This document shows, one piece after another, positions 22,337 to 63,371 of a DNA stretch of 64,000 nt; within the stretch, counting starts at the first letter, position 1, and each line of letters starts with the position of its first letter. The DNA is from Clytia hemisphaerica (lineage: Eukaryota; Cnidaria; Hydrozoa; Leptothecata; Clytiidae), in the NCBI GenBank assembly GCA_902728285.1, contig CACVBU010000726.1, forward strand, positions 620,001-684,000, given 5' to 3'. The position numbers and the translations under genes are program-made. Below the pieces are notes generated by a model, which worked only from the letters and a program-made list of their open reading frames with translations, did not search any database and was not told the origin of the DNA.

Positions 22337-22849
22337 AGATACTCTGAATGAACATTGTCCAATAGAGTAACAATTTTATTCTACATTTGATGTAGTGTCT
22401 AATCTATAGGGTTTCCCAGACAATAAAACAAATGTTAAATAGGTCAAGAAGCCACTTTAAATATCATAAGTGGTTTTGATAGGGAAATTTCAAAATCGTG
22501 TCCAGATGAACCAATATTTATTTGCTATCAGTCACATAAATATGTGCTAAATTCAACCAGCATGTGTTTTATGTGTTATTTTATGAGTTATGAAATTCGA
22601 ATATGGTTTTCATTTGTAACCATTTCTCAATATGGCCAGTACATGACTCGATACTCCCATCCGTCAAGGCCTCGGGAGGGATTGAGACCAAGGGGGACCG
22701 TCGGGGCCAAATTCCTATGAAAGTTCATTTATTAAGCTTATGCTTTTTAGGTATTCTATAATTGTGCTATTAAATAGAAATATTGACCTACCCCTGTTCA
22801 ATATTTCGACACATTCTCATTAAGCTAGCAATTCATAATGACTTTACGG

Positions 22850-23661
22850 GGAAAATTATTATAATCCTTTAATTGGTTATAATCTTTAATGATTTGGACC
22901 CACGACCCACTTAAAAATTAATCACGGTAAATAATTTTCAACGTGATTAATTTTAACCAAAAAGTACCAGACGTTATTTTCCGGTTTAGACTATTTTCAA
23001 AGGGGTAAAAAGTTATTAAAATTCTTTAATTGCTTATATTTTTTTATTATTTGGACCCACTTAAAAGTTAATCGCGGTAAATAATTTTCAACGTGATTAA
23101 TTTTAACCAAAAAGTACCAGACGTTATTTTCCGGTTTAGACTATTTTCAAAGGGGTAAAAAGTTATTATAATCCTTTAATTGCTTATATTTTTTTTATGA
23201 TTTGGACCCACTTAAAAGTTAATCGCGGTAAATAATTTTCAACGTGATTAATTTTAACCAAAAAGCACCAGACGTTATTTTCCGGTTTAGACTATTTTCA
23301 AAGGGGTAAAAAGTTATTAAAATTCTTTAATTGCTTATATTTTTTTATGATTTGGACCCACTTAAAAGTTAATCGCGGTAAATAATTTTCAACGTGATTA
23401 ATTTTAACCAAAAAGTACCAGACGTTATTTTCCGGTTTAGACTATTTTCAAAGGGGTAAAAAGTTATTATAATCCTTTAATTGCTTATATTTTTTTTATG
23501 ATTTGGACCCACTTCAAAATCAATCACGGTAAATAATTTTCAACGTGATTAATTTTAACCAAAAAGCACCAGACGTTATTTTCCGGTTTAGACTATTTTC
23601 AAAGGGGTAAAAAGTTATTATAATCCTTTAATTGCTTATATTTTTTTTATGATTTGGACCC
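22850..23661. repeat. ~150-bp tandem satellite, five units plus partial sixth
   Basis: The landmark GACCCACTT starts at 22904, 23054, 23205, 23355, 23506 and (cut short) 23657, giving 150/151-bp periods. Each unit carries AATCRCGGTAAATAATTTTC and AACGTGATTAATTTTAACC, which can pair as TTAATCACG/CGTGATTAA. Units alternate between an AAAATTCTTTAATTG and an ATAATCCTTTAATTG form, suggesting a ~301-bp dimer. The sixth unit is broken by the LTR element and resumes at 32568-32650. Confidence 0.9.
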
Positions 23662-24514
23662 TGTTGCGGCCATGATAACATTGGCCTCAAGAGACTTGTC
23701 ATATTATGACGTATGTTGTTTTGGTAGCTATATTCCCATTTGGGAATTAGCGTATGATATCGCGCTTTAATGTTTAATTTAATTAGTTTTTAATACTCCA
23801 ATGCACAATTTTCTCTATTTTTATCGCCCTTTTTTGCCTTTGAATTCAATCTAGAAATTGTTATGAGAACGTGTAGACGTTTTGAGGAGTTTGTAGAAAC
23901 TTCATTTTCACTTCTCGTTGGAGAAACTTTAAAGTTACATTTTAGAGTTATTGAATTGATTTTCATTTTGGATTTACTTGAGAATTTATTTTGGTATTTC
24001 CTGTGGAGCCATCCATACACAGTGCTTTGGAGCTTATGTTTCAGTAAGTTTTTCCTATATTTTTGACTTGTAATTTTTCCTATTTTTGTACATTTTTTTG
24101 GTACTAGATTCTCTAGGATTCTTTAGATTTTTCCTTGTATTTTGGTCACCTTTTGACCTGGTCTGTGACTTTCGTTTAGTCGATCCTTGGAGTCATTTTC
24201 CTAGCTGTTTTTCTGGTCACAGACCGTTAGTCTTTTGGGCATTGCATTTTGTCCTTTGGTCGATTTGGCTTCATACTCCATTTCTGGCCTCTATTTGCCC
24301 TCTGTTTGCTCTAGGGCCATTTTACTTTTGGAGTTCCGTATAGTTTTCCGTATTCCGGTATTGGCCCTTTCCATCCGGAACTGACTGATTCCGGAATTCG
24401 GAACTTAGCTATTTTTATTTTATTTTAAATTCTAATTAGGCTTTCTTTGTATTTTTCTAGCCTCTGAATCAATAAAGAGCGTTGTAACACACCACACTGT
24501 TTCGGGCTTCCACA
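23662..24514 (+). repeat. 5' LTR of BEL/Pao element
   Basis: 853 bp starting TGTTGCGGCCATG and ending GGGCTTCCACA. It has an AATAAA poly(A) signal at 24471-24476. It differs from the 3' LTR by one base in a T run (GTAATTTTTCC versus GTAATTTTCC) as far as I can compare, implying a very recent insertion. Confidence 0.92.
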
Positions 24515-24595
24515 AAGTGAAACATAAGAATGAATGGAGACGATGTCGATCGTCCCCTAGAACTCGTTGGAGTTCACAATGGAGATGGAGATGTT

Positions 24596-24740
24596 GACCG
24601 TACCGCCACAGATGTTGTGCCACCGACCGTACCGCCACAGATGTTGACCGTACCGCCACAGATGTTGACCGTACCGTCACAGATGTTGACCGTACCGCCA
24701 CAGATGTTGACCGGACCGCCACAGATGTTGACCGGGACCG
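24596..24740 (+). repeat. 21-bp tandem repeat (about 6-7 copies) in BEL leader
   Basis: The unit ACCGTACCGCCACAGATGTTG repeats head to tail with few changes (GTC for GCC, GGA for GTA) and keeps a reading frame giving repeated VPPQMLT. It lies between the 5' LTR and gag. Whether it is translated is unknown. Confidence 0.85.
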
Positions 24741-24932
24741 CCATAGAATAGAAGAATCAAAACCCAGAGATGAGGGAGATGCTAGTCGTGCAGGTACCCA
24801 AGTTGTCGAGGAACCTGATGACAAACAGAGCATACCTCTCAAGATGAAAAATCGCTTTTACTTGGTGCAACAGCTCTAGGTGCAACGCTCTCCAAAACAC
24901 GTCGCTACCCAAAAAGAGAAAGAAAACTAACT

Positions 24933-27339
24933 AAGAAAGGGTAAGAAATCACGCATTCAACACTTATTTGCTGAACGAAAAAGACTTCTCAACAGATTAG
25001 AGAAACGAGGCAAGTCTATGATGGAAACATTAGCCCTGCTGGATCAAAGTCTTATCAAGAGTCGACTTCAACAGTACAACGAGACAGCATTAACTTTCGA
25101 GGGCACTCACAATGAGCTGAACGAGTTACTCGACCCACATGAAAAGGCTGAAGACCAGTATTGGTTTACCACAGTTGATGATCAAATCAATGTCGTAAAA
25201 CAGTCAGTTTACGACAGAATACAGACATTAAATCTTCAAGAAGAAGAAAGAAGCACTGCATCATCACGTAAATCTTTGCAATCATCACGATCATCAAAAT
25301 CTTCTAAATCATCACGATCATCAAGGTCACCTAAATCCTTACGATCGTCACATTCTTCTTCAAGTTCTTCAATGGTTTCCAAGTTGTCAAAATCCACTCA
25401 CTCTTCCAAATCGTCGAAGAAGTCAGGATCCACATCACCAACATGGAGTTCACCAAGATCGAGACATAGTCAACTTTCTGATCAACTGCTTGAAGAAGAG
25501 ATCAAACGAGCCGAACTACTAGCAGAGTCAAAATTCATCGAAGAAGAATATGACCATGCTCAAAGGACAAAGGAACTGAAACTACAACGTCAGATAGCAT
25601 TATCTTCAGCAAGGATTGATGTGCTTCGTACAAGAACCTCGAACGAAGATCAAACTGACACAAGTCAAGCCAAGCAGGAGCCACCTGCGGCACCAACAAT
25701 CATTGATCCATCCAAAGACTCTAAAGACTCTATCAGCCAATCAGAAATCACCGCACACACCACCATGCAATCGGCGTCACGCTTTGATCAACCAAAGACG
25801 CATCAATCTTCAACCAGAAAACACATGCAGCCATGCACACCTGACAATCGTCGACACCTGGATCAATCGTCGAACACCTTGATCAATCGTCGACACACCT
25901 ACCGTCAATCGGCAGAAGGCAAGTCATGCAGGAGCTGCGGCCACCTGCGGCGTCACGCTTTGACAACCAACCAAAGACGCATCAATCTTCAACCAGCAAA
26001 CAAGCCATGCAGGAGCCACCTGCGGCGTCACACCTTGATCAATCGTCGACACTCCTACCGTCAATCGGCAGACAAGTCATGCAGGAGCCACCTGCGGCGT
26101 CACGCTTTGATCAACCAAAGACGCATCAATCTTCAACCAGTAGACAAGCCATGCAGAAGCCACCTGCGGCATCAATAAATTTTGATCCATCAAGGAGACA
26201 CCTATCGTCAATCAAACAAGCCTTGCCGGAGCCACCTGAGGCGACATTCAACATTGATCAGTCAAGGATGTACCAATCACCCGTCAATACCCAAGCCATG
26301 CAGGAGCCACCTGCGGCATCTCAATGTTCCAAACAGACAAAATTGTACCCATCGATTTACATGCATCAAGCCAAGCAAAATCCGACTGCGATATCACATC
26401 CACGCCATTCCATGACATCAATTAACACAGAACCATTTCAACATTCAAGCTTACCAGTTCAAGCTGCATCGATGGATGATATATGGAGAGACTTATTCAC
26501 CAATTACGTCACCGAAAAGGACGTCTCCTGAACCGCTGTCGACGAACGATCTACTATTTGCCATGTTGAAACAACAAGAGGCACCACGTGTGGACGTGGA
26601 ATCGTACGATGGAGATCCACTCAACTATGCACATTTCATCTCTGTTTTCAAGGAAGCAGTTGAATCGAAAATCCCAAATCCTAGAGGAAGGCTGACAAGA
26701 CTGATGAAGTACACCACAGCTGAAGCTCATGAAGCAATCAAACATTGCATCCAACTACCGTCTGCATATGGCTACTCCTCCGCCTTGGATATACTCAAGA
26801 AGAGATTTGGAAATCCACATCTGATTTTATCGGCATATCGCAACCAAATCAAAAATATGCAATCATTACGATTCAGCAACCCTAAAGGTTTTCGCGAATT
26901 CCTGAACCATCTGACCAAATGGCAGACCTTCTACTACTGTGATCACTCTAACGTCCTGGATTCACCAGAAACCATCAGGCTGCTATTGGAGAAGTTACCA
27001 CCACCTCTCATCGACAGATGGAATCGAAAAGCTATGATACTCCGTCAATCAAATGCAACGGAGCCAACTTTGAAACATTTTGTCACGTTTATGGAGCAAG
27101 AAACAACCCTTGTGAATGATCCATTGTACTCTCGTCATGCTATCGGTAAAGATTCTGCACCCAAACAATTGGAGAAAGGTCATTCAAGAAACTCAAGACG
27201 TTCCTTCAAGACTGCTGCAACCAAGAACGAACAAACACCAAGGATCAAAATCTGTCCGTTCTGTGAGCAACAACATGACGCAGAAGATTGCCCAGTCATC
27301 TTAGCAAAGGATATCAACCAACGTAGCATCATGATATGA
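24933..27339 (+). pseudogene. BEL/Pao gag region, disrupted
   Basis: Nucleocapsid/capsid precursor region. The frame is open from about 24933 (first ATG 25018) with a charged helical start, then a Ser/Lys-rich tract (25260-25440) and a zone of near-repeats built on AMQEPPAAS and FDQPKTHQSS (25780-26440). In that zone the frame changes at least once near 25850-25930 and again near 26520. The capsid-like part follows (VDVESYDGDPLNYAHFIS, residues from 26590) and the first zinc-knuckle-like CPFCEQQHDAEDC near 27255. A TGA at 27337-27339 interrupts the same frame that continues into pol. Repeat slippage or sequencing indels could explain the frame changes. Confidence 0.8.
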
Positions 27340-30300
27340 TCAAAGAAACTTTGTTTTGGATGTCTCCAAAAGATGACTCATGATCACAACGCCCGAACGT
27401 GCACAAAGCGACGAACCTGTAAAGTATGTCGATCCAAGCATGCAACTATCCTCCACGGCTTCAAATTTCGACCAAGAGAGACCAAGAGAGACGATCGACC
27501 ATCATCGCATGCTGATGGAGACAATTCAGACCATAGAACTGATACCAAAGACCAAGGGAGATCAGATCATCAGATGAACAAAGATACCAAAGATGTGAAG
27601 GAAGACACAGATCAACCTCAAACCAAAACAACAACTTGTCGTGCAACCAATTGTCATGAAGTTATATCAATGTGTGTAGTTCCAATCTGCATCAAACATG
27701 CAGACGATCCCTTATCAGAAAGACACACCCTTGCGATGCTCGACCCCTGCAGCCAAGCATCATTTATTGCTGATACCTTGGTTGACCGGATGAACATCAA
27801 AGGACGTACCACCTCCTTATCAATCACCACAGTGAATGGAACTGGTGAAGTCAATTCTACCGTCGTCAAGGAGCTGAGTGTCAGAGCGTTAAACAGCAAC
27901 CAAACGATCACTGTCAAGAAAGCATTCTCAAGAGAAGATCTACCAGTCGACCAAAATGAGATCGCCACCAAATCCAAGATCAAAGCATGGGATTACCTGA
28001 GCAAAATCAAAGAGAGCTTACCTGACAATGACCATCAACCTGTCGAGCTTCTTATCGGTGCAGACTGCCTCAAAGCTATCGAACCAATCGAAGTCATCCC
28101 AAGTCAAGATGGAGGTCCATTTGCTTATCGCACCGTTCTTGGATGGTGCATCGTTGGACCATTAGAATCCTCCACAAAGAGCCAACAATCAATTGGATGT
28201 CACAGAACCATCGTCACTGACATATCAGAAAAATCAAAGAGTAATCACTTCGTTTTCAAGACCAATGTGAAAGAAATGGACATTGGAGAAATGTACGAGT
28301 CGTTGTACAACACTGATTTTGTCGAAAACCAGTCTAACGAACGTATCGACTTTGAAGATTCACACATGTCAGTCGAAGACAAAAGGTTTATGTCCATCAT
28401 GGAAGAAAAGACAACGATGGAGGATGGTCACTATGTACTTCCATTACCACTCAGAGATGGAGAAAGCAACTTACCAAACAACAGATTCATTGCAGAAAGA
28501 CGATTAGCAAGTCTCAAACGCAAGATTGAACGCAACCCTACCTTTTTCGACCACTACATGACATTTATGGATACCATATTGAAGAATGGTCATGCAAGAA
28601 TCGCCAAACCATTACCAGATGACAAGCAAGTTTGGTATCTTCCACACCATGGAGTGTATCATCCACGAAAACCAGGGAAAGTCCGAGTCGTCCTGGATTG
28701 TGGAGCTGAGTTCCAGAATCGATCACTGAATAAACAATTGTTAACCGGACCGGACTTGACCAATCAAATTGTTGGAGTTCTGTCACGTTTTCGTCAAGGT
28801 CGGATTGGAGTAATGGCAGACATCCAAGCTATGTTTTACCAAGTCTTTGTTCCTGAACACCAACGATCCCTTCTTCGCTTCCTTTGGTGGAAAGACAACG
28901 ATCTAACTACAACACCTATCGACTACGAAATGAACGTCCACGTCTTTGGTGCAGGATCATCACCAAGCTGTTCAAGTTATGCACTCAGAAGAACAGCCAT
29001 CGACAATCGAGAAGATTTCCCTGACAAGATACGAAACATCCTTTTCAACAATTTCTACGTCGATGATATGTGAAATCAGAAGATGACGAACAAGAAACCA
29101 TTGAAATGATACAGGGTGTCAAATCGCTATGTAAACGAGGAGGATTCAACCTCGTAAAGTTCGTAACCAACAGTCAAACCGTGCTCAATTCTCTACCAAA
29201 AGAGGATCTTGGATCGTCACTCAAGGATGCATCCCTACTGGGTGGACTCACTGACAAAGCACTCGGTGTGTCCTGGAATCTCACTGATGACGTGTTCAAA
29301 TTCGATCTGACAGAATTGAAGCAGAAACCTTTGACAAGACGAGGAATGTTGTCTATGATAAGCAGCATCTATGACCCTCTTGGATTGATATCACCATTCA
29401 TCCTGAAAGGAAGACTTATTCTCCAAACTTTGTGCAAGATGCAACATGGCTGGGATGATCAAATTCCAGAGGATATTGCAACCGATTGGACAAAATGGTA
29501 TTCCGACCTTCGAGATATCAAATTGATCAGCATACCACGATGTTATCAGCCAGATGACTTCGGTACACCAGTTGAGAAATCATTCCACCACTTCTCAGAT
29601 GCTTCTGAGAGAGGATATGGACAAGTGACATACTTGAGACAAATCAACCAAGAAGGAGAAATCCATTGTTCCTTGGTAATTGGCAAATCACGTGTTGCAC
29701 CAATTAAATTTGTATCAATACCAAGGCTTGAGCTGACAGCAGGAGTATTGTCCACAAAGATCTGCAATCTTGTCGAGAAAGAAGTACAAATCAAAGATGC
29801 CAAACATGTATTCTGGACCGACAGTGAGGTGGTTTTGAGCTATCTCCACAACACTACCAAGAGATTCAAAACTTTTGTGGCAAATCGTGTCCAAACTATT
29901 CATTCATCTACTGACCTTGAAGCCTGGAGGTACATCAAAACGACTGACAATCCAGCTGACATCTCCTCAAGAGGAATTTCTACCAAAGATGCAAACAAGA
30001 TAGAAATGTGGATACATGGGCCAGAATTTCTCTGGCAAGACGAAAGTATGTGGAAGAAATCAAAGCCTTCAACCAAGCTAAACGCCAACGATACAGAACT
30101 AAAGAAAGTGAACGCAATCATGATAAAAGATGCAACAAATAATGTGTTTTTGAGGTTAATCAAGCAGATCTCAAATTGGAAAAGGCTATGTCGTATCGTA
30201 GCATTAATCGTACGTTTCGTACGCATCATTTGTAAAGCTCCAAACATCGAAAGATCACTTCATCCCACCATTGAAGAAGTAAATGGAGCAGAAAGGCTCA

Positions 30301-31539
30301 TCATCACCACCACCCAGCAAGTAAAATTCACAGACGAAATTGCAGCCTTGCAGAAGCAAAACCATGTCTCGGAACACAGCCCAATTTCCAGTCTTAATCC
30401 CTTCATTGATGAGTCAGGAGTACTTCGTGTTGGTGGAAGATTGCGGAGATCCAACCTAGACTTCCAACTGAGACACCCTATTCTATTACCAAAGAATCAT
30501 GAGTTATCTGAGTCAATCGTTCGATGGTGTCACGAGAAGTGTGCTCACAGAGGTCGTCTACACACACTTCACGAATTGAGAAATCATGGTTTCTGGGTTG
30601 TCAATGGAAACACCTTTGTTCGAAAAATTATCTACCATTGTGTCATTTGTCGTTACCTCAGAGGATCAACATCCAATCAGATCATGGCTGATCTACCAAA
30701 AGCAAGAGTTGTCGAATCTCCACCATTCACTTACGTTGGGGTGGATTTCTTCGGACCATTCATCGTCAAAGAGCTGAGGAGGGAATTAAAAAACGCTATG
30801 GAGTTATCTTCACGTGCTTTTCAACACGAGCTGTTCATCTTGAAGTATCATCCAGCTTAGAAACCGACACATTCATCATGACTCTAAGAAGATTCATCTC
30901 AAGACGAGGAAAAGTTCGTTCAATGCACTCAGACAATGGAAACTAACTTCGTTGGCTCCGAAGAGAGTTTGAAGAAGGCTATCTCAGAAATGGACCATGA
31001 AAGAATTGCAAAATACATGAACGAGCAAGACGGTGATTGGATTTGGAAATTCAATCCCCCAGCCTCAAGTCATATGGGTGGGTGTGTGGGAGCGTCACAT
31101 CAGAAGTATCAGAAGGATCCTTGCTGCACTCTTGAAATCTCAAGGACCAAGTCTCAACACTGAAACCCTCACAACACTGCTTGTCGAAGTAGAATCAATT
31201 ATCAACTCAAGACCATTAACTGTCGACACCGTAAGCGACCCAACAGAACCAATGGCACTATCACCTATGAATTTGCTGACCATGAAAAGCAAAGTCGTCT
31301 TACCACCACCAGGAGAGTTCGACGAATCCGATTTATATTCTCGCAAACGATGGAGAAGAATTCAATTCTTAGCAAACGAGTTTTGGGAGCGGTGGAGGAA
31401 AGAGTATCTTTTTCAACTGCAGCACCGCACCAAATGGAGAACCAAAGAAAGGAATTTTCGATCTGGAGACATAGTCCTACTAAAGGACAACACACTAACA
31501 AAACACACGACGAAACGATTGGCCGATGGGAACGATTGA
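27340..31539 (+). pseudogene. BEL/Pao pol region (protease, RT, RNase H, integrase), disrupted
   Basis: Domains in order: second zinc-knuckle region with Cys/His pairs (27350-27470); protease-like LDPCSQASFI (27740), where the usual DSG is replaced by DPC; reverse transcriptase with VRVVLDCGAEFQ (28690), ADIQAMFYQV (28820) and the catalytic YVDDM (29056-29070); RNase H with FSDAS (29600) and WTDSE (29815); integrase zinc-binding H-H-C-C (30500-30650) and VGVDFFGPF (30740). A TGA directly follows YVDDM, and reading resumes one base out of frame at 29070. Further frame breaks lie near 30790, 30935 and 31080 in the integrase core. At least four lesions in total. Confidence 0.88.
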
Positions 31540-31700
31540 AAAGGTGTATCCAGACGACACTGGCACAGTACGTTCGGTAGACTGTCGAATTGGGAAAAAT
31601 GTTTACAGACGACCAATAACAAAATTAGTGTTATTGATTGAGTGTTCGACCCCCGACGAGGAGCCATCAGATTTGGAGTAATCATATGATCGCGAATCAT

Positions 31701-31715
31701 ATGAGAGGAGCCATG
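31701..31715 (+). other. Likely polypurine tract of BEL element
   Basis: ATGAGAGGAG immediately precedes the 3' LTR (31716) with CCATG between. Such a tract primes plus-strand synthesis in LTR elements. Assigned by position and purine richness only. Confidence 0.45.
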
Positions 31716-32567
31716 TGTTGCGGCCATGATAACATTGGCCTCAAGAGACTTGTCATATTATGACGTATGTTGTTTTGGTAGCTATATTCCCATTTGGGAA
31801 TTAGCGTATGATATCGCGCTTTAATGTTTAATTTAATTAGTTTTTAATACTCCAATGCACAATTTTCTCTATTTTTATCGCCCTTTTTTGCCTTTGAATT
31901 CAATCTAGAAATTGTTATGAGAACGTGTAGACGTTTTGAGGAGTTTGTAGAAACTTCATTTTCACTTCTCGTTGGAGAAACTTTAAAGTTACATTTTAGA
32001 GTTATTGAATTGATTTTCATTTTGGATTTACTTGAGAATTTATTTTGGTATTTCCTGTGGAGCCATCCATACACAGTGCTTTGGAGCTTATGTTTCAGTA
32101 AGTTTTTCCTATATTTTTGACTTGTAATTTTCCTATTTTTGTACATTTTTTTGGTACTAGATTCTCTAGGATTCTTTAGATTTTTCCTTGTATTTTGGTC
32201 ACCTTTTGACCTGGTCTGTGACTTTCGTTTAGTCGATCCTTGGAGTCATTTTCCTAGCTGTTTTTCTGGTCACAGACCGTTAGTCTTTTGGGCATTGCAT
32301 TTTGTCCTTTGGTCGATTTGGCTTCATACTCCATTTCTGGCCTCTATTTGCCCTCTGTTTGCTCTAGGGCCATTTTACTTTTGGAGTTCCGTATAGTTTT
32401 CCGTATTCCGGTATTGGCCCTTTCCATCCGGAACTGACTGATTCCGGAATTCGGAACTTAGCTATTTTTATTTTATTTTAAATTCTAATTAGGCTTTCTT
32501 TGTATTTTTCTAGCCTCTGAATCAATAAAGAGCGTTGTAACACACCACACTGTTTCGGGCTTCCACA
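31716..32567 (+). repeat. 3' LTR of BEL/Pao element
   Basis: 852 bp, same ends as the 5' LTR, AATAAA at 32524-32529, followed by target duplication GACCC and the resumed satellite (GTTAATCACGGTAAATAATT). Confidence 0.92.
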
Positions 32568-32655
32568 GACCCACATAAAAGTTAATCACGGTAAATAATT
32601 TTCAACGTGATTAATTTTAACCAAAAAGTACCAGACGTTATTTTCCGCTTTAGAC

Positions 32656-33696
32656 TAAAGTCTATGGGCCCCCCCCCAGCGGTTTGCGTGAATGCGTGAA
32701 TGGGCATTTTCGGTTGCGTGAATGCGTGAAAATTGGAAAAAAAAATGCGTGAATGCGTGAATTGAAAAAACTTGCGTGAACGTGAAAATTCACTTTTTGA
32801 TTGCGTGAATGCGTGAATCATGGCTATTTTGTGCGTGAATACGTGAATTTTCCCTTTTTTCCAGAAATAATGTGCAGTTTTCCCGATTTTCTAATGTTTC
32901 CCCGATTTTTCCCGAAAATTTTCCGATTTCCTGAAAAATCGGGTTATTGCGTGAAACTCGAGGAAAATTTGCGTGAATGCGTGAATTTCGAAAAAAAATT
33001 GCGTGATTGCGTGAATCGAGGGTCGGCTGGGGGGGCCTCGTCTATTCACGATAAGTGTGCACTCTTTTTTCTTTTACCTATAACTTTTGAAGGAATTCTT
33101 CAATCTTTATAAATTTGGTATCATTGGAAAGATATTAGTGAGTGGAGCAATTTGAAATAAGAAAATCTGTAAAAATAATTTAAAAACGAAGATGATAATG
33201 AAGAAGAAAAAAATGAAGATCTTGTAGAAAAGTGCTATAACTTTCATTTTCACTGGAGAGATTCTTTGCTCTTAGGAGGTCATCACTGTGAAAAAATTTC
33301 ATTAAAATATTTATTTAATGTAAAGTTATGATACAAAGTTCGTAAGTGATTTACCCCAAAAAACAGCAGAAAACAGCGTTTTTAGACTTATAACTTTGTT
33401 TGATATCTTTTGACTGAATGGTTATTTTTGAGAATTTTTTTCACAATGATGACTTCCTAAGATTAAAGAATCTCTCCAGTGAAAATGAAAGTTAAAGCAC
33501 TTTTCTACAAGATCTTCATTTTTTTCTTCTTCATTTTCATCTTCATTTTTAGAATTTTTTAAAAGATTTTTTTATTTCAAATTGTTCCACTCACTAATAT
33601 CTTTCCAATGACACCAAATTTATAAAGATTGAAGAATTCCTTCAAAAGTTATAGGCAAAAGAAAAAAGAGTGCACACTTATCGTGAATAGACTTTA
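32656..33696. mobile_element. TA-flanked foldback element with ~260-bp arms, containing a nested insertion
   Basis: Left end TA-AAGTCTAT, right end ATAGACTT-TA. After removal of a nested insert (32666-33039) the left arm reads AAGTCTATTCACGATAAG onward and is mirrored by 33443-33694 (shared GTGTGCACTCTTTTTTCTTTT, GAAGGAATTCTTCAATC, GATATTAGTGAGTGGA, GAAGATCTTGTAGAAAAG). The loop is about 33300-33440. No coding capacity. Confidence 0.8.
32666..33039. mobile_element. GCGTGAATGCGTGAA-rich element nested in foldback left arm
   Basis: Ends GGGCCCCCCCCCAGC and GGCTGGGGGGGCCTC are inverted. The sequence GTCTAT occurs on both sides (32660-32665, 33040-33045), a 6-bp target duplication. The interior is built of GCGTGAATGCGTGAA repeats and a TTTCCCGATTTT...AAAATCGGG hairpin. 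A second copy lies at 56157-56480. Confidence 0.75.
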
Positions 33697-45000: not shown

Positions 45001-46961
45001 ATAATTAGAGGAAAATTTGACCTTTATCGTACTAAATTAGAGGAAAATCAGAAATTCGTGATCATGGACTCGTACTAATAATTAAAGTTAGATAAATTAT
45101 TTCATTTTGCCAAAATAATTAATTCGTACTAATTAGAGGACGGATTAAATTAGAAGAATGACGGTAAAGCAAAAAGTAATAGACGGAACAATTTTAGTCG
45201 TCTAGAAACCTTTGTACACTAACTCTAAACAAAAGAAAAGTGTCAATATTGCAATTATAATTTTTTGCCGCTCAAATAAAATTCTTGAACAAAAAATATG
45301 TGTGGATTTGTGTGTTAAAAGTTTTTCATTTGAGTTAATTTTGTTTTGATTGTTGCTCGATAAATTGTTTTCTCGCAACGCAAGTTTCTGCGTAGCTAGC
45401 CGGGGATTCTATAAGGCCGGAACAACGGATTCTTCCAGTCGTTTATACAAACTAAATCACGTAACAATAATCGTATTATCATATGACGCATATACTACTG
45501 TATTACACGCATTATTAACGACTCCCTTCTACTCGAACCTATATAAATCGACAAGTTTTCTTTCTCAGTTAAAAGATTCTCTTTAACTCAGTTTCTCCAT
45601 TACTCGAATAAACTTTAATTCCCTGAGCGATTTCGAGCTGTGGAGACTCAACTGCACGTATATTACACCGACCCAGTCCCTTCGACGACATACGTTGTTG
45701 CACATCCGTTTTGATAACCCTTAACCCTTTAACGACTGCGTCTTTTTATTTTTCCGTGCCCAAAATACCGTGGCTTTTTAAAATTACTGTTCTTAAAATA
45801 CCGCTGCTTTTTAACGAACCGTGTCATAAAGACTGAAGACGAATCATCTCGTCATAATCTTGTTTGGCACGGAACGCGATGATGAGATATCTCGTCAATG
45901 GTCGTTAAAGGGTTAACATTGCGGTCGACTTTTGAGGGGAATGATAATGGATTTAAAACTGATGAAAATGACATCGAAAATTCTTTGACTATGAGAATAC
46001 CAATGCAACGACTTCATTTTTGCCGTCTTTCCTTCCTGGTTACTCGAACCCATTCTCTTCACGATTTAAAGATCGATAGGTGGTATTGCTTGTTTTTTTA
46101 AAAAGCCCCATCTCGTTCCCTGCGTATTATCAGCTTTTTTATGCTTACTGGTAGCGCTAGATAATTTTTGCGCTAGTTTTTTGCACGTGAAAGATTACGT
46201 AATCCAAAAACAAAATGTCAGACTTTATTTGTTCTTTGATTTTGAAGTCGTTGCACTGCAGTGTAACTTTGTAACGTCAGATATTTTTATGACGTATTGT
46301 TTTGAGAAGTTCTCCTCTCTCGCATCAGCCAACACCAGGGTATTCTCTGGCGTCAATAAGCAACGTAAATAAAGCCTGGAATACACGGGGACGAGGTTGA
46401 AAAAGCCCTGAATACCAAACAACTCAAATTTTATATCAACCAATGATTTTCTCTTCTTCTCTTTTAGCGAAATGGTGCACAAGCATTGTAGATGCTGGTC
46501 CCTTCGTGAATGGAACTCACTATTGTGTCCGATGTAATTATGTACTCAAAGCACGCAACCGTTTAAGATTCCGTTTCTCAGCTTATGGATGTGGGTGCGA
46601 CGAATGGAAGCCCCTCCAAAGTGACGGTTGTTGTAAAGAAATAGAAAATGTTAATAAAACGGCTCGTGCAATTATTTGTGCCAAACGTCCTAAGTCTATA
46701 AACATTACTGGGCCAACCGTACCTGAAGATTATGGAAAAAAGAAAGTCATTGCTTCACAAAAGATTACGCATGAAGTCAACTCGACCAGTTATGATAAAC
46801 TTCCTCTATTAGGAGGTGGATTTTTATTACTTGTGGCTATCATCCTTGTTGGAAGGGTGTATATGTGCGTCCGCTCAAATCGTCAACAAAGGAGGTCCAC
46901 GTATGAATTCCATCGTGTTGTAGCCTTAGATGTGAACTCTTTGCAAGATCACAGAGTCTAG
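39073..46961 (+). CDS. Small Cys-rich type I membrane protein, two exons, unrecognised family
   Basis: Exon 1 39073-39145 encodes a signal peptide (MELYWLIFGIVSIFYCVEGN) and ends in phase 1 at GTAAGT. Exon 2 46468-46961 follows acceptor CTTCTCTTTTAG with the matching phase and ends at TAG 46959-46961. The protein is ~188 aa: signal peptide; an extracellular part with about nine cysteines (WCTS, YCVRC, YGCGC, GCCKE, IICAK) and N-glycosylation sites (NGT, NKT, NIT, NST); one transmembrane helix (LLGGGFLLLVAIILVGRVY); and a basic, short cytoplasmic tail. The layout suggests a receptor or ligand-binding co-receptor. The cysteine spacing does not let me assign Ly6, TNFR or another fold. The intron is 7.3 kb and filled with MITEs. 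Confidence 0.75.
39653..39917 (-). mobile_element. tRNA-derived SINE with 11-bp target duplication
   Basis: TTCATTGATGT occurs at 39642-39652 and 39918-39928. On the minus strand the element starts with a tRNA-like head (A-box-like TAGCATGAAGGTAGAGC, B-box GGGTTCGATCCCC), continues with a ~150-bp body, and ends in a short TTAC repeat. TTGCGACCG near the plus-strand left end and CGGTCGCAA near the right end are inverted, so the 5' and 3' ends share 9 bp. It lies in the 7.3-kb intron. Confidence 0.8.
40219..40550. mobile_element. 332-bp nearly palindromic MITE with TAA duplication (PIF/Harbinger-like)
   Basis: TAA at 40216-40218 and 40551-40553. Ends AGGCTTGGGGACACGA and TCGTGTCCTCAAGCCT. Arms continue through GCAATGCAACATGC/GCATGTTGCATTGC, and the centre is the palindrome GCTCCATTGTCCC around GATTCGAATC. 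3-bp TWA duplications are typical of PIF/Harbinger. No coding. Confidence 0.75.
42575..43268. mobile_element. ~695-bp element with ~26-bp terminal inverted repeats
   Basis: AAAGTCTGTCCAGATATAAT then TGGCA at 42577-42600 is mirrored by TGCCAATTATATCTGGACAG then ACTTTAA at 43244-43270. A second inverted pair, ACTAAAAACGGGGGT (~42925) and ACCCCCGTTTTTAGT (~43225), lies inside. A 137-codon minus frame fills part of it but resembles no transposase and is probably fortuitous. Confidence 0.65.
44018..44189. mobile_element. 172-bp hairpin element
   Basis: ATTACGTCACGAACATCACTT then ACCTCG (44018-44044) is mirrored at 44163-44189 with one mismatch in 27. Pairing continues more loosely inward to CCATGGTAAT. 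It is intronic. Confidence 0.65.
44526..45164. mobile_element. TA-flanked CCGTCATTCTTC...GAAGAATGACGG element, intact copy
   Basis: Perfect 23-bp terminal inverted repeats (CCGTCATTCTTCTAATTTAA, then TCC), TA at 44524-44525 and 45165-45166. The interior repeats CGTACTAATAATTAGAG-type blocks. It is the uninterrupted counterpart of 19955-20673. Confidence 0.8.
45725..45912. mobile_element. 188-bp piggyBac-like MITE
   Basis: TTAA at 45721-45724 and 45913-45916 flank CCCTTTAACGAC...GTCGTTAAAGGG. TTAA duplication with ends starting CCC is the piggyBac pattern. The interior contains GGCACGGAA/TTCCGTGCC pairs, so the whole folds back. Confidence 0.8.
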
Positions 46962-49110: not shown

Positions 49111-50331
49111 GGTGGACGAACCTTTTCAAGTCAAAATGAAATTATTGAAAATGTGATACCCCCTGGAAAATATTTGCAAAAAACCCTTGGAAAAATTCTT
49201 TTCGTACCTTAAAGTAATAGTGAGGTCTGTTAGCACAAAAATACTTCAGATGGTGATTAAAGCATGAAATTTGGCACAGATGATCCTTAGAGGGTCTAAA
49301 ACTTAATTCTAAACAGTAACACCAAATTTTGCCACCTGGCCACCTGTCAGATGACGTCATCAGGTGGCTTAGCAAAAATTTAATTTTTTGAAAATATTTA
49401 AAATCTGATGGTATCAGCGGAAAGAGCATGAAATGCTGATGAAAATCGAGGTATAAAACATGCCTTCAAAATCTTCCTATCAAAAGTTATGAAGGTTTAA
49501 AGTTTTGTGATGACGTCATCATAAGCCTTTCCAGGCAAAACCTAAAATCCCGTAATAACGGAACTAGTTGACCAAATTTAGTGTTTTAAACATGAATCCA
49601 TGTCAAAATTTGAAGTTCCATCTGATGCTTGGGTCTAAACAACATAGGAAGGCTTAAAACATCCAAAAAAAATAGTTGGTTGTACACTGTGCTCCTGAAG
49701 GGAGAACGCTGCGTTGATTTGCCTTGTAAAGCTCAAAATCTAAGTTTTAGTATTTTGTAGGATTTAAAGCTTTTAATTCAATTTGAACATCGGAATCGGA
49801 AAAAGCAATGAATTTTGATATGAATTCATGTATAAAACATGAAATTTGGTCAATTTGTACCAAAATTACGAGGTTTTTAAGTTTTGCCTGGATAGGCTTA
49901 TGATGACGTCATCAAAAAACTTTCAACCTCCATAACTTTTGATAGGAAGATTTTCAAGGCATGTTTTATACCTCAATTTTTATCAGCATTTCATGCTCTT
50001 TCCGCTGGAACCATCAGATTTTGAATATTTTAAAAAAAATGTTTTTTGGCCCAGCTACCTGATGACGTCATCTGGCAGGTGGCCAGGTGGCAAAATTTGG
50101 TGTTACTGTTTAAAATTAAGTTTCAGACCCTCTAAGGATCATTTGTGCCAAATTTCATGCTTTAATCACCATCTGAAGTATTCTTACGTTTTTATGTGCT
50201 ACCCGACCTCACTATAAGGGTGGACGAAGTAAAATCAGTCTTTGACTCCCTGGAAATTTTAGAATAACTTTTTACCCCCTTAGAAAAATGGAAAAACAAC
50301 CCGGATTACACTCTGGAAATGTTCGTCCACC
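49111..50331. mobile_element. 1.2-kb foldback element with four TGACGTCA motifs
   Basis: GGTGGACGAAC (49111-49121) is mirrored by GTTCGTCCACC (50321-50331). Arms of ~400 bp pair over most of their length (for example GATGGTGATTAAAGCATGAA / TTCATGCTTTAATCACCATC and CATGCCTTCAAAATCTTCC / GATTTTCAAGGCATG). GATGACGTCATC-type sites sit at ~49353, 49511, 49902 and 50059, two per arm. The reading frames on both strands are mirror images of the arms and are not genes. Confidence 0.8.
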
Positions 50332-56480: not shown

Positions 56481-56839
56481 TTTGGGTTCAAACTATCACT
56501 TTTAGCATTAAAATCATATTCTTACTCAACCTTTTAATTTGAAAAGTCGCATCTATAGTATAATGTCGCAGAACTATTAATTTCAATTTTCCCGTTCATA
56601 ACAACACTTGAAAATATTTTTGATCAACCTTTTAATGTCATTTTAAAGCCGCAGAGCCGTCAATTTCAATTTTCCCTGTTCATAACAAACATTATACTTG
56701 TAAAGTACAAAATTCTTTTTCCAAGAATCCTTAAGCTGCTATATAAGCATCTCTATCTTTTCAAACATACATATATCTATTTTGGAAAACAACAACAACG
56801 ACGTAGGGAGACGAAAAAACATACAACGTTTCACCAAAT

Positions 56840-59800
56840 ATGAATTGTACCAATGGAACGACTCACTGGACAATTAAGGATTGTGTTGATGTTAATGTGA
56901 AGCTAGTAAACTAATCATTGATGAATAATGCAAGCAGAGACTGGGACTGAGCCAACACGATATTAATGAACTGAAAGATGAATAGAAATCAATAGAGTGG
57001 GGCTCAGGCCCTCGAGCCCAGACCCCTGAATAGGGCGAGCAAACATGAGCGAGAAAAGGAAAGAAATCAAGGACTTGGGAGAAAGAGCTCGAAGAAAGAA
57101 GACTTGGAAAGGAGAGCTCGAATGAAAAGGACTTGAAAAGGAGAACTTAAAGGAGAAGGACTTCACGGACTTGAAAAGGAGAACTTGAAGGAGAAGGACT
57201 TGAAAGAGAACTATCGTTAATTACATGCCAGAGTTACTAAGTTATTTGATGTCATTATATCTTACATTTCTTGATAATAATTGGAAAAAGACATAAATTC
57301 CCTTCGTCACACTGGAGGTTCTACCGAGACCAGAAGAACTCGCTTCGCAAGAATCAGAGATCCAAAAGGAGAGAGCTACATTACACCAAGGAACAAGAAC
57401 AATAAAAGATTACACCACAGAAACTGAACTATTGTTGATTGGAAGTTTGGTTGATTTCGCGATTAAGGACACGTTATTTTGAAAAGGACAAAAGTGATTT
57501 TACATCAGAAAGTATTAAAAACTATCAAAACGAGAGTTTTACACAAAATCAATTATTTAAAGTTCAACGAGAAGAGAAGTTTAACGTCAAACTCTCGGTA
57601 TCAATTATTCAACAAACTTGAACGCAGTGATTCTTTGCCGTAACCAAGCATTGGTTACAATCCAAGCATTGGTTACAATTGATTCAAGTAAAATAATACC
57701 TAACATTGTGCAGTAAATTTTGATTTCGATTTTGTGATTTGAATCGAAAGATAAATAAGTAAAGGAAACTAGGCAAGAGGAATACAGCATCTAGAGGTAA
57801 CACATTTCGACGACCTATAAATCATTCAACATGCAACTCGCTAAAACGACAGTGTCGATGAAAGCGAAAAACAATTAAGCAATGATGAACGTAATCCAAA
57901 TGACTTTGGACGATATACCACAATTCAATGGAACCAGTAATGAAAATATCAAAAGCTATTTCGAAAGTTTCGAGAGTATAGCAACCATTGGCAAATGGAG
58001 CTCCAAAGAACGTCTGAACATTCTAACAAGATATGGCTTGCAAGGTCACGCGATGCACTATTACAGAGCGCTACCAGCAGACGTGAAGCCTTCATACAAG
58101 CTGATAAAAGAGATGTTGCTGAACTACTTCTGGTCGTCTGATATCAGAATGTTAAAGAAAGCTGAACTAGCCAAACTCAAACAAGAGGAATGTTCATCAC
58201 TAGATATCTACCTTGAAAAACTCGAAGAACTAGTGTATCAATTAAATTACAGCAATGAGCAGAAATTGGACTCACTCATCGCCGGACTGAATGAGGATTT
58301 ACGAATATCAATCATTTTAAAGAGATTCAAAACCTTCAATGAAGCAGTGGCTTACATCAGATTAGAGAACGCGATCAAGCCGAATTACAATGTGAACTCC
58401 ACCAAACTGCTAAAAGAGCTGAACGAAAAGATCGACAAATTAGCAGCTGGCGCGTGTAATGTCCAATCTTCCAGTGCAACGCCAAGACGAGTGTCATTAA
58501 ATGAGTACGCCGGTGAAAGAGATCTCGATGAACAAGTATCCGAGGTGATCGAACAAAAGTTACGAATGATAACGCCTCAAACAATCAATACGCTTGGCCG
58601 ACCAAAATTTGCATCATCAACAGACGGAATGAGAGAGATCGAAAGAATGCAAGCCAAAATCAAGAATCTCAAGCGACAACGGAACAGACCTCCTCAACAA
58701 AATAGAAGAATCTCCTTAGATGGACGCCGCTACACTTCAACGCGAACGCTGGTAAGAGACCAGAAACCTCGAGAATCCTCAAAAATTTACCCACCACCGA
58801 ATATTACCTACCGACCACCGACAATTATTCGCCAACCACGCAAGACATTTACACAACCACCAAAGTTTCATCCGCCACCTATCATTATCGAAGCTCACTC
58901 ACCACCGAAAGTTCATTACCGACCACCAAAAATTATTCGCCGACCACGTATAACATATCAACAACCACCGAAGTTTCACTCGCCGAGCGAAATTGTTTAT
59001 GAACCGTCGAAACTTCACCCGTTGTCAAAGATTACAAACCTATCTCCAAAGATATGCCATCTTCCGCTAAAGAAATCGCAAGAAATGATTCAACATTCAT
59101 CTAGAATTATTCGAACCCCCTCCAAGGTTATCCATCAGCCACCAAATAATTCACAGCATTTGTCAGAAATTAAGAAAACACTGTGCAAGAATGTTGAAAA
59201 GTCTTCCAGAATAAACCAGTCCGGGAATATTGTAAAGCCGTTCAAGATTGTTAAAAAGCCGTCCGAGATTGTCAAAAGCCGTCAGAGATTGTTAAAAAGT
59301 CAACCGAAATTGTCAAAAAGCCGTCCGAAGTTGTTGAAAAGCCGACCGATATTATCGAAAAACCGTCCGATATTATGAAGAAGCCAACCGAGAGTATTAA
59401 AAGTCCATGTTGTAGTGTTCAAGAGCCGTCCAAGAATATTGAATACCCGAAGAATATTCCGAAATCATACGAGAGTGTTCAAATATCCACAAAACAGTCG
59501 ACAGAATGTATGAGGTTTCAACTGAAATGCCGAAAATACCAGATAAATCGAAGCAGAAACAAGATACAACTGAGTCTGCTACTGAAAATAATCTTACCAA
59601 CGTTGTACATCCTGATTATGAATATCATATCGTTGATAAATCTTACAATACAATACCAAGTGAAGAGCCAGCAGCAACCAGAAATCAGTGAGAGAATTCT
59701 CAACGATGATAAAATATACGACCAGAAAAACCAATGGCACAACCGAAAGATCTACGAGTACAAGAAAAGAATTTCTGAAAAACAACAAATTTATCCCAGA

Positions 59801-62800
59801 AACAAAAATAAACTTCGTTCATTGTGTTGAGTACTCAATACTTAACCATGCTTGATAAAGTTGTTATTTAATGAAACACGAATATTTAAAGAACTGCACA
59901 GAGCACCAAACCAAAAAAAAAAAAAAGAAGTTATATCGAGTCAAAATTGCGTACGCTGAGAAGGACAGTACCGACTACAACCAAGACAAAATTTAGCCCA
60001 GAGAAATTGTTGAATAAATTCCGAGATGTCGAATAGAATGCAGATATGGTTACCGAATGAAACTAACAATTACCTAAAGACTGAAATGTTAAAAGAGAAA
60101 ATGAAATTGGACAAATAGTTTATTGATTTTATGAAATTTTTAAGAGGTGAATTGAGTTTATGTAATATTTATGAATCAGACGATAATTTGTAATTTAGTT
60201 ATTTTCAAATAAAATATTTCAGCATTAGAAATTGTTAATTATTCGTAAAATTTGATATATAAAGGACCGACATCAAAGTTGAAAACAACTCGAAGACCTG
60301 CGAAGATGAAAACTTGACATGCAGTCCAGAATACACCGATTATGTAATGTTTTAATTTAGTGACGAGAACGTCACTTGTCAAACAATGAGGATGTGAAGT
60401 CATATCAGTGTACGAACTAAAATCCAGAGAAGAATAAACAATTAAACAGTTGTGGAAACTCGATAAGTAAACAACCACAATTGAGCACTTAATTGCACCA
60501 ATCATCAGCACGAAAGCAAAAACATTAAAAAGTTAATGATTCCTGAGAGAAAGAAGTAAGCAAAACCACGATCTCGATTTTTTTTTGAAGTGACGAGGAC
60601 GTCACTTGTCGAACGTCGGAGATGTGAAGCTAGTAAACTAATCATTGATGAATAATGCAAGCAGAGACTGGGACTGAGCCAACACGATATTAATGAACTG
60701 AAAGATGAATAGAAATCAATAGAGTGGGGCTCAGGCCCTCGAGCCCAGACCCCTGAATAGGGCGAGCAAACATGAGCGAGAAAAGGAAAGAAATCAAGGA
60801 CTTGGGAGAAAGAGCTCGAAGAAAGAAGACTTGGAAAGGAGAGCTCGAATGAAAAGGACTTGAAAAGGAGAACTTAAAGGAGAAGGACTTCACGGACTTG
60901 AAAAGGAGAACTTGAAGGAGAAGGACTTGAAAGAGAACTATCGTTAATTACATGCCAGAGTTACTAAGTTATTTGATGTTATTTATGTTACGCTTATTTG
61001 ATATTTATTGCTTAATTGGAGAAACAGAATTGATGTTGATTGAAATCTATTAGCGTACCTTTACTACGTGTCCATAGACATATCCCCAATAAGGGATACC
61101 CTGATCGAAGGAACAGATAAGTGATCTGAGAGGTCCCCTCAATAACTAAAGGGTGACCCCAATCGCCTAACTTCCCTTCGTCACATTAACACAGACATAG
61201 CGATCACTTTTTCTGTTTTATCTGGATCGGGAATTCTTCTCTTGGGTATTATTGCTTGTTGCTACTTTTACTGTAAGGAAAAAATTACGTGCTTGAATAG
61301 TCCACAATGGTCCAGCTTCGTGTTCATCTTCGTGGGCATTCTATCCTTTCTAAGCATGTGTCTTATCAAAGATGATCATGTTTATCATATACTGGCTATA
61401 TTTTTTTTATGGACATCAACAATTTATATAATTTTGGGCTGTTTGACATTTTTTACCCAGCCGGAATATTTCATTAAAAAGGAGAGTCACGATTCGCACC
61501 TGCTTCCATTCATTCTTGGAATAACCGGAGTTGTTGTTTCACAGGAGCTTTTGTATTTCATTGGTGCATTCTCTGATGGTGGCAATATAAGGAAACGTAC
61601 CTACTTTGCATCATCTGCTTGCCAAAAATTCTTTCAAATCATCGTCTACTATTTCATATTAACTGATTCTGTCCCAGACAAAAAATCATTTCGCGGTGCA
61701 TCATGGTACTACAAAGCTATTGCTTTAATCAATTTCATATTTTGGATAGAGTCAATCAAAGTGACCAAAGACCGCCAACAGGAAAAGTATATGGAAAACA
61801 TGTTTCATGAAGGTTTTTATACGATTTTTGCCAGAACCTATACAGCTTTGATTGTTGACTATCGCTTGATTTGTTGTATCCTGTTTGTGGAGCATGCTTT
61901 GGAGATTGACAAAATGATAGAACGCGGTGAGAATTATGAAAGAATAAGCGGTCTTGATCATATACGGGAAGAAGCATCAATCAAGATAGTTCATCCATGG
62001 TTTCGAGACTATCAACGATTTACAACATCTATTAAGAGGTTGAAAGGTTCAGGAATCATAATCGGTTTAGTACTCGTATTGTTACAGATTTTGAATGCTT
62101 TTGTTTACTTCAAGGAGGCAAGCGTTGTGGGTCCTTGGGCAAACATTTTTGGATGTTTGGCTGCATGGTCCTTTTTAATTGCTGGTGTTTGGCTGTTATT
62201 GGAGGTATGCCGTTATGACAATATCCTTTAAAAAATTCTAGGTTAAGAAATTTTTGGAAATTTTAGATTCGCCTTCTATCTTCATTTTCTTGAATTTAGG
62301 ACAAATATAAATAAGTACCAAGTTGCCAAAATACTTCTGACACCCAGCCCCCCCCCCAAGTCAGTTAAATAATCGAATTTTAAACTTGTATACAACATGA
62401 TAAATTTTTCAAAAACCCTTTGGTAGAAAATATTCATTGACAAAATTCAGCGTCGGTCAACTATAATAGTTGGCAAAAGAAATTTCTGCTCTATAAAAGC
62501 TCAAATGACAATACACCTTTTCGACCGTAGCCGTCAATCGCCGCGCGGGCATTTTTTTTGTCCGTTTTACCATTCTAAACTCGTAACAATCCTTTTTTTA
62601 CACTTTTTTCTTTTGTCTTTAGGTGCGAAAAAAAGACTAGGACTGTTTTAGGGTGGTAAAACGGACAAAAAATGTCCGGGTGGCAATTGGCGGCTACGGT
62701 CGAAGGGGTGTATAATAAAATTATTGATTACTTTTCATTGTATCTTTATGCAGACTCGGTCAATCAAGGATGAAGATGGAGAAAAGAGGGAAGAAAACGT

Positions 62801-63371
62801 GGGTATCCAATACCTTATGACATTAATGGGGCTTGTTGGTGTTATGTTTTGGATTTGTAGCGCTGTGTCAACGTGGAAGTGGTCAATTATGGCTAAATCA
62901 GGAGATGCAAAACGGTATCCATATTTGACATGGACAACGATCAAGGTTTGTCATTTTCCAATCATCCAAATCTTCCAAATCTATATCTTCCAGAAAGTTC
63001 ATGTGATGTATGCCAACAAGGAAACTTTTCTGAAGAGAAAAATACTATACTTTTTGATTCCATTTCTAATGCTCAGTTCGCTGGCTTTACTTATTAATTT
63101 AATTATCTGTGAATACAGATATTATGTTGAGGAGTTGATTGAAGAGGCAGATTACCAAACATTGACTCAGATATTGTTTGCAACTGGCGCACCAATGGGT
63201 ATTGGCTTCTCTTGCCATATTGTCCTGCATTTCTACACAATGTATTACAAGATGACAAGATGCCAACATGATTACACACGTGTAAATCAAAGTAGTAGAT
63301 GTAGAATAAACGATGAAGGGAATCCATTGTTGGACAATGATCGGTTTTCTCAATCCTACTCACAAATTTAG
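56840..63371 (+). CDS. Multi-pass membrane protein, possibly otopetrin-like, coding exon split by LTR retrotransposon
   Basis: Exon 1 starts at ATG 56840 and runs to 56895. A 4.3-kb LTR element follows, and the same frame resumes at 61190 after one TTAA duplication, running to 62204 (donor GTATGC). Exon 2 is 62754-63371 (acceptor CTTTATGCAG, stop TAG). Without the insert the protein would be ~562 aa with a short glycosylated N-terminus (NCTNGT) and about 12 hydrophobic segments in two similar halves, each with a FFQ/IFQ...YF segment (SACQKFFQIIVYYF; PIIQIFQIYIFQ) and a final TM block (YTALIVDYRLICCILFVEH; FATGAPMGIGFSCHIVLHF). Length, halves and these blocks recall otopetrin proton channels, but I hold this loosely. 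Exon 1 as it stands would be terminated in the retrotransposon, so this allele is probably null. Confidence 0.6.
56896..57311 (+). repeat. 5' LTR (416 bp, variant 3' portion)
   Basis: The first ~340 bp appear identical to the 3' LTR. After TTATTTGATGT (~57253) the sequence diverges and is ~147 bp shorter, then rejoins at TTCCCTTCGTCACA. Confidence 0.85.
57313..57330 (+). other. tRNA-Gln primer binding site
   Basis: TGGAGGTTCTACCGAGAC is complementary to the 3' end of animal tRNA-Gln (…TCTCGGTGGAACCTCCA) with one mismatch, one base after the LTR end. Position and match make this the minus-strand primer site. Confidence 0.75.
57882..59830 (+). pseudogene. Gag-like protein with Pro-rich and KPSEIVK-type repeats
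   Basis: Residues 1-180 look like a retrotransposon capsid (IPQFNGTSNENIKSYFESFE, then YGLQGHAMHYYRAL and LKQEECSSLDIYLEKLEELV). A basic linker (KIKNLKRQRNRPPQQNRR) leads into a Pro-rich zone of repeated YRPPxIIRxPRxTxxQPPKFH units (58780-59040), then a 21-bp repeat zone encoding KPSEIVK-like heptads (59230-59400). The first frame ends at 59378; a one-base change near 59277 shifts the heptads into another frame, which continues to ~59690. No zinc knuckle is seen. Unusual tail for a Gypsy-type Gag. Confidence 0.7.
60354..60622 (+). repeat. Repeated palindromic box before the 3' LTR
   Basis: AGTGACGAGAACGTCACTTG (from 60359) recurs as AGTGACGAGGACGTCACTTG (from ~60590), each followed by TC(A/G)AAC and GATGTGAAG. 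Each box can fold (AAGTGACG/CGTCACTT). The second copy runs directly into the 3' LTR and occupies the polypurine-tract position. Confidence 0.6.
60623..61185 (+). repeat. 3' LTR (563 bp)
   Basis: TGTGAAGCTAG...CTTCGTCACA. Its 3' third (from ~60975) differs from the 5' LTR. The minus-strand 67-codon frame seen in both LTRs is a by-product. Confidence 0.85.
62514..62710. mobile_element. 197-bp TA-flanked foldback MITE in the intron of the otopetrin-like gene
   Basis: TA-CACCTTTTCGACCGTAGCCG at the left and CGGCTACGGTCGAAGGGGTG-TA at the right. Pairing continues through GTCCGTTTTACCA/TGGTAAAACGGAC. It sits ~45 nt before the acceptor of exon 2. Confidence 0.8.

Follow-up and report, generated by a model that had tools for sequence, protein, structure and literature searches.

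Retrotransposons of the Ty3/gypsy group (Metaviridae) are characterised by a gag protein of the PF03732 type, long terminal repeats (LTRs) with TG...CA ends, a primer site and a 4-bp target duplication, and in an ordinary replication cycle a single U5 (unique 5' region) is inherited by both LTRs. This type of gag, TG...CA ends and a 4-bp duplication, with a primer-like motif by the 5' LTR, recur in a 4,290-bp element within a 64,000-nucleotide stretch of the genome of the hydrozoan Clytia hemisphaerica (contig CACVBU010000726.1, positions 620,001 to 684,000; hereafter the window, in whose own numbering all positions are given), where the element probably interrupts the first coding exon of a membrane protein gene. 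Unlike in Ty3/gypsy elements, neither a protease nor a reverse transcriptase, RNase H or integrase was found in the forward frames that follow gag, which makes placement of the element by pol impossible. The TR-GAG elements of plants, such as AT5TE33540, likewise consist of two LTRs and a single gag open reading frame (ORF) and need pol from elsewhere, and one TR-GAG element was observed transposing in Arabidopsis; AT5TE33540 is a plant relative of ATCOPIA63, whereas the Clytia element comes from an animal and combines a PF03732 gag with a degenerate post-gag tail and mismatched LTR tails (PMC8704663).

Unequal LTRs have also been described. For crapaud of Podospora, terminal repeats of two kinds are found on one element and full copies carry LTRs of different subfamilies, but these subfamilies differ in the U3 (unique 3' region) half, whereas the Clytia LTRs differ after 357 bp, in the presumed U5 (PMC10787394). 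New copies of Onsen carry recombinant LTRs consistent with the first template switch taking place between two RNAs, a likeness to the recombination considered here (PMC5668417). In human immunodeficiency virus 1 (HIV-1) the 5' and 3' LTRs are unequal in 26 of 88 proviruses and inter-molecular strong-stop transfer has been proposed, although the asymmetry consists of deletions in one LTR and not, as in Clytia, of two different tails (PMC9278108).

An LTR element within an open frame

The element spans 56896-61185 and is bracketed by TTAA, as found by reading of the region, a repeat search and exact boundary work. Both LTRs have TGTG...CACA ends and TTAA abuts both outer ends: at the left junction GATGTTAA is followed by the TGTG start of the first LTR, and at the right junction the CACA end of the second LTR is followed by TTAACACAGACATAGCG. 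A 4-bp target site duplication, a feature of LTR retrotransposons, is present on the left and the right, and TTAA starts at 0.9% of the positions in the window. Once the element and one TTAA are removed, 56840-56895 runs on into 61190-62204 without a stop for 357 codons, from the ATG at 56840 to the donor at 62205; the joined frame reads MNCTNGTTHWTIKDCVDV, then NTDIAITF, and continues through to the GT of that donor; the host exons contain no stop and no frame break. The preliminary description of this DNA, made from the sequence alone, had proposed an LTR retrotransposon inserted at TTAA in a coding exon, and on these grounds the proposal remains the most plausible one: an LTR element that entered a coding exon and duplicated 4 bp accounts best for the sequence. 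Given that the frame from the ATG at 56840 ends after 24 residues when the element is present, the assembled allele is predicted to be null, and the null or truncated allele proposed earlier follows as a predicted 24-residue product. The next in-frame ATG past the insertion, at 61356, lies within the second hydrophobic segment of the host protein.

The gag ORF matches Retrotrans_gag (PF03732) with an expectation value (E) of 1.2e-7 and 32.3 bits (cut-off 24.1), the domain lying in its N-terminal part; near its end is a 21-nt repeat array with one 20-nt spacing at 59234-59275, where the repeat reading shifts frame. A comparison of the gag with PHROGs returned no row at E up to 0.1, and one with PDB returned four chance-level rows (best E 0.046). 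None of the three forward post-gag frames, to which the search for pol was confined, matches a pol family of Pfam at E up to 1, the one row below cut-off being MCM6_C at E 0.044, and the ORF list holds no plus-strand ORF of at least 80 aa in the leader. Given the gag ORF and the lack of any pol family in those frames, the element looks non-autonomous and gag-only. Its LTRs around a single gag ORF, with no pol in those frames, give it the organisation of a TR-GAG element, and the reverse transcriptase, RNase H and integrase placed after reverse transcriptase that mark Ty3-type pol were not found in the same frames; we therefore regard it as gag-only, with a gag of Ty3 type, and not as an autonomous Ty3/gypsy member.

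The primer-binding-like motif begins with TGG one base 3' of the 5' LTR, and its sequence, TGGAGGTTCTACCGAGA, may correspond to a transfer RNA (tRNA) primer, tRNA-Gln; a tRNA scan of the window returned no tRNA gene, and Rfam at the gathering threshold was likewise empty. Where LTR retrotransposons have a polypurine tract, the 3' LTR is preceded by just a short CGGAGA. Towards its end the interior carries two copies of a 53-nt pre-LTR motif (60347-60399 and 60577-60629, 77% alike), and this doubling may stem from rearrangement of a larger parent. A 20-mer of the LTR had no match in viral contigs and none in genome contigs, collections of viruses and prokaryotes in which little is expected, and a gag scan of the viral contigs gave 68 pattern matches, none of them confirmed, an absence that says little for a viral collection. 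Taken together, it is probable that an LTR retrotransposon, non-autonomous and with a gag of Ty3/gypsy type as its sole gene, entered a TTAA of the first coding exon, giving a predicted null allele, and that this is a recombinant copy. The features of the locus are collected in Table 1.

Table 1. Features of the interrupted gene and of the element, in window positions
Feature	Position	Strand	Basis
Possible TATA box TATATAAG, 100 nt 5' of the ATG	56740..56747	+	4 exact copies on the window + strand, this being one
Putative first coding piece, MNCTNGTTHWTIKDCVDV + 2 nt	56840..56895	+	Open frame, coding score
TTAA, left target site copy	56892..56895	+	Read directly, boundary work
5' LTR, 416 bp, TGTG...CACA, short tail	56896..57311	+	Repeat search, boundary work, BLAST
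Primer-binding-like motif TGGAGGTTCTACCGAGA	57313..57329	+	Sequence
gag ORF, 499 codons between stops	57879..59378	+	ORF list, Pfam
Post-gag tail, degenerate or non-coding; no pol family in forward frames	59379..60622	+	Pfam, repeat search
3' LTR, 563 bp, TGTG...CACA, long tail; 357 bp at start as in 5' LTR	60623..61185	+	Boundary work, BLAST
TTAA, right target site copy	61186..61189	+	Read directly, boundary work
Remainder of interrupted exon, open for 338 codons from 61191, donor GTATGC at end	61190..62204	+	Frame, splice scores
Predicted intron	62205..62753	+	Donor at 0.992 and acceptor at 0.987 quantile of window GT/AG sites
Last exon(s) to TAG, in frame with preceding exon	62754..63371	+	Frame

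Terminal repeats with different tails

The two LTRs are unequal in length (416 bp for the 5' LTR, 563 bp for the 3' LTR). They are identical at all of their first 357 bp and then break abruptly into tails of 59 bp (5') and 206 bp (3'), which have the terminal 14 bp in common and are otherwise poorly alignable; BLAST carries the alignment of the LTRs to LTR position 388, with 97.7% identity over 389 columns. The local score of tail against tail is 31, which none of 500 shuffles reaches (maximum 30), and this is a weak hint of a distant relationship between them. That the 3' LTR tail gained a foreign piece was considered as the sole cause and ruled out, as the bases flanking the extra sequence differ too. 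The two LTRs of a retrotransposon are expected to have the same sequence at insertion, and here the 59- and 206-bp tails differ. Given no difference in 357 bp followed by a barely alignable tail, this is not the product of mutation after insertion, and the unequal tails are taken to indicate a recombinant copy or an assembly mosaic, rather than an element outside the LTR retrotransposons.

The preliminary description had read the LTRs as identical over ~340 bp and the event, hence, as recent. The identity stands for 357 bp, but the LTRs differ beyond it and the argument for recency is weakened accordingly. Zero differences in 357 bp give an upper 95% bound on divergence of ~0.84% (rule of three), which dates the U3-R part (R being the repeat region) alone, and does so provided that conversion or assembly joining did not equalise both parts; recombination or assembly could be alternative sources of the 357-bp identity.

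Ordinary strand transfer does not yield the same U3-R with two different U5s. In the proposed sequence of events, which we favour, an autonomous relative supplied pol in trans, the element RNA served as template, and the resulting DNA entered a TTAA after 18 codons from the ATG with duplication of the 4 bp. The U3-R of both LTRs would come from one template and the two tails, the presumed U5s, from templates of two subfamilies, for which the simplest route would be switching between two co-packaged RNAs in reverse transcription. This raises the possibility, which we hold tentatively and at less than even odds, that the copy represents one reverse-transcription event on two co-packaged RNAs of differing LTR subfamilies, with the same U3-R and different U5s, integrated in the gene.

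Several points weigh against this account of a recombinant gag-only copy inserted in the first coding exon. The mismatched tails break the rule of one U5, which implies that there was no plain cycle, or that there was a later change, or that the locus is misassembled. Neither LTR contains an AATAAA or ATTAAA by which the R/U5 boundary could be placed, and a second copy of the family that would show the two tail subfamilies was not found in the window or in the viral and prokaryote collections. In addition, the N-terminal coding piece is just 18 codons long, and the pol scan covered the forward post-gag frames, not the leader or the minus strand. Lastly, the authors of the crapaud study credit gene conversion, not template switching, for the mixed pairs (PMC10787394).

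Given the exact identity of the 357-bp stretches and the abrupt change after them, as from a duplicated graph node, it is possible that this repeat let the assembler join two places, in which case the true locus could carry a solo 563-bp LTR or a different member of the family, and the gag interior and the short-tailed LTR would belong to another place. However, we consider this unlikely, and two observations speak somewhat against it: first, the window has no ambiguous base (N) in 64 kb. Second, the assembly runs across a BEL/Pao element whose 853-bp LTRs are 99.88% identical and across a 5-copy 151-bp satellite, and such continuity would argue for long reads.

It is also conceivable, though distinctly unlikely in our judgement, that an older long-tailed copy or solo LTR was resident at the site and that later recombination or conversion brought in the short-tailed 5' LTR and the interior, from another copy or its circular DNA, resetting the apparent age. 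The order observed is exactly what would be expected if a long-tailed LTR at the site and a one-LTR circle had crossed over within U3-R, and conversion has been invoked for the mixed LTR pairs of crapaud (PMC10787394). Nevertheless, given that the host exons are intact, with no stop or frame break, a very old insertion is unlikely.

The putative coding start and possible rescue by splicing

The reading of a null allele depends on whether the short segment at the ATG is coding and on whether splicing could bypass the element. The 18-codon piece has a coding score of +2.35 bits; among 4,000 presumed non-coding 54-mers, 34% lack a stop and 8% reach the score of the ATG piece, and the segment is likely coding. 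Splice scores were taken from a rough consensus, with weights not trained on the source species, by which the gene's own intron sums to 8.5 (4.22 for the donor at 62205, 4.25 for the acceptor at 62753). The donor at the LTR start, 56897, scores -0.72 (0.867 quantile), and the acceptor at 61194 in the exon scores 2.97 (0.968 quantile) with the LTR present.

The strength of this AG at 61194, together with an ATG piece of 18 codons that 8% of presumed non-coding 54-mers match, would suit an insertion into an intron or leader, such that the exon starts at 61195, an unseen upstream exon provides the N-terminus and the gene is perhaps intact. We regard this as quite improbable: at the empty site the score of this AG is down to -1.1, and the open joined frame, the TATA-like box 100 nt upstream (TATATAAG, which we take to be a TATA motif with that presumed function) and two sequons of what we take to be the N-glycosylation type all fit a real N-terminus.

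It is very improbable that the element acts as an intron in a functional gene through its removal or partial exonisation by splicing, since the three frame-keeping, stop-free splice pairs that exist, 56897 to 61277 (sum 1.06), 56897 to 61151 (-3.32) and 56883 to 61194 (-2.97), all lie far under the 8.5 of the gene's own intron and the top-scoring pair below the ATG, 56897/61194, joins phases 0 and 1 and is out of frame. The best of the frame-keeping pairs, 56897 to 61277, costs the first membrane span, and 56897 to 61151 adds residues coded by the LTR. The earlier statement that splicing out is unlikely for loss of frame is borne out for the best pair, although other pairs keep the frame with weak scores; rescue by splicing is considered unlikely.

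The host protein, its surroundings and the use of the locus

The conceptual host protein has 546 aa, with a possible 48-nt intron at 62946-62993 removed; this intron has weak sites, and the frame is open too when it is left unspliced. The protein is a predicted multi-pass membrane protein, in which a simple threshold marks 11 hydrophobic segments, including two that overlap, and a count by eye gives 12. Pfam gave no match above cut-off (rows for CD20, QcrA_N, DUF4184 and TctB were all below theirs), with otopetrin absent from the rows both at E up to 1 and at E up to 10, and PDB gave no row at E up to 10. Otopetrins have about 12 spans; an otopetrin profile was built from five sequences, with loops omitted and one of them an N-terminal part only. 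With hhalign the score against it is 25.6, exceeded by 2 of 60 shuffles (30.1 and 26.6), while the end-to-end score against the OTOP1-3 profile is 54.0, above all 60 shuffles (maximum 49.65) and reached once in a larger set of 1000 that keeps the hydrophobic pattern (maximum 59.7); as controls, the reversed profile gives 17.2 and the window's major facilitator superfamily (MFS) transporter a z of -1.3. These scores suggest that the host protein is otopetrin-like at most. A structure predicted for the exon without relatives was of poor quality (mean predicted local distance difference test 44.1, predicted template modelling score 0.28). No paralogue of the gene was seen in the window, where no other tblastn row falls below E 1.6, and in a scan of viral contigs six stretches match the pattern of the membrane exon with none confirmed, an absence that says little for a viral collection. 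The predicted intron of the gene contains an inverted repeat (62511-62557/62667-62713, 47 nt, 85% complementary) and, nested in it, a second (62554-62603/62623-62672), resembling a miniature inverted-repeat transposable element.

Elsewhere in the window, the BEL/Pao element lies at 23662-32567 (Peptidase_A17 at E 2.2e-47, DUF1759, DUF5641). Its 853-bp LTRs differ by one gap and no substitution, its coding frame has several shifts and a stop, and, in an element with such young LTRs, these faults may have been inherited or may be sequencing indels left uncorrected. It splits the 151-bp tandem satellite (22904-23661 and 32568-32668), with GACCC at both junctions, which looks like a 5-bp target duplication. 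The MFS transporter ORF, at 20717-22372 on the minus strand, is long and intron-free (PF07690 at E 3.5e-30, PF00083 at E 3.7e-29) and presumably of the organic-cation-transporter type. Two large inverted repeats, at 49237-50185 and 33040-33692 (arms of 314 and 301 nt, 92% and 90% complementary), are possibly foldback elements, and an ORF of 186 codons at 46401-46961 on the plus strand has a cysteine-rich part, one hydrophobic stretch and no Pfam match above cut-off.

In summary, the exonic insertion is an ordinary event of a known kind, and the mismatched LTR tails are the unexplained part of the locus, with published parallels. Exonic LTR insertions that spare the rest of a gene are of use as natural knock-outs and point to recent transposition. 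LTR dating would assign a copy with mismatched tails a falsely simple age. If the origin from two co-packaged RNAs is true, the copy would naturally mark intermolecular second-strand transfer in an element that is non-autonomous. Its mismatched tails could reveal how gag-only elements get copied along with their relatives.

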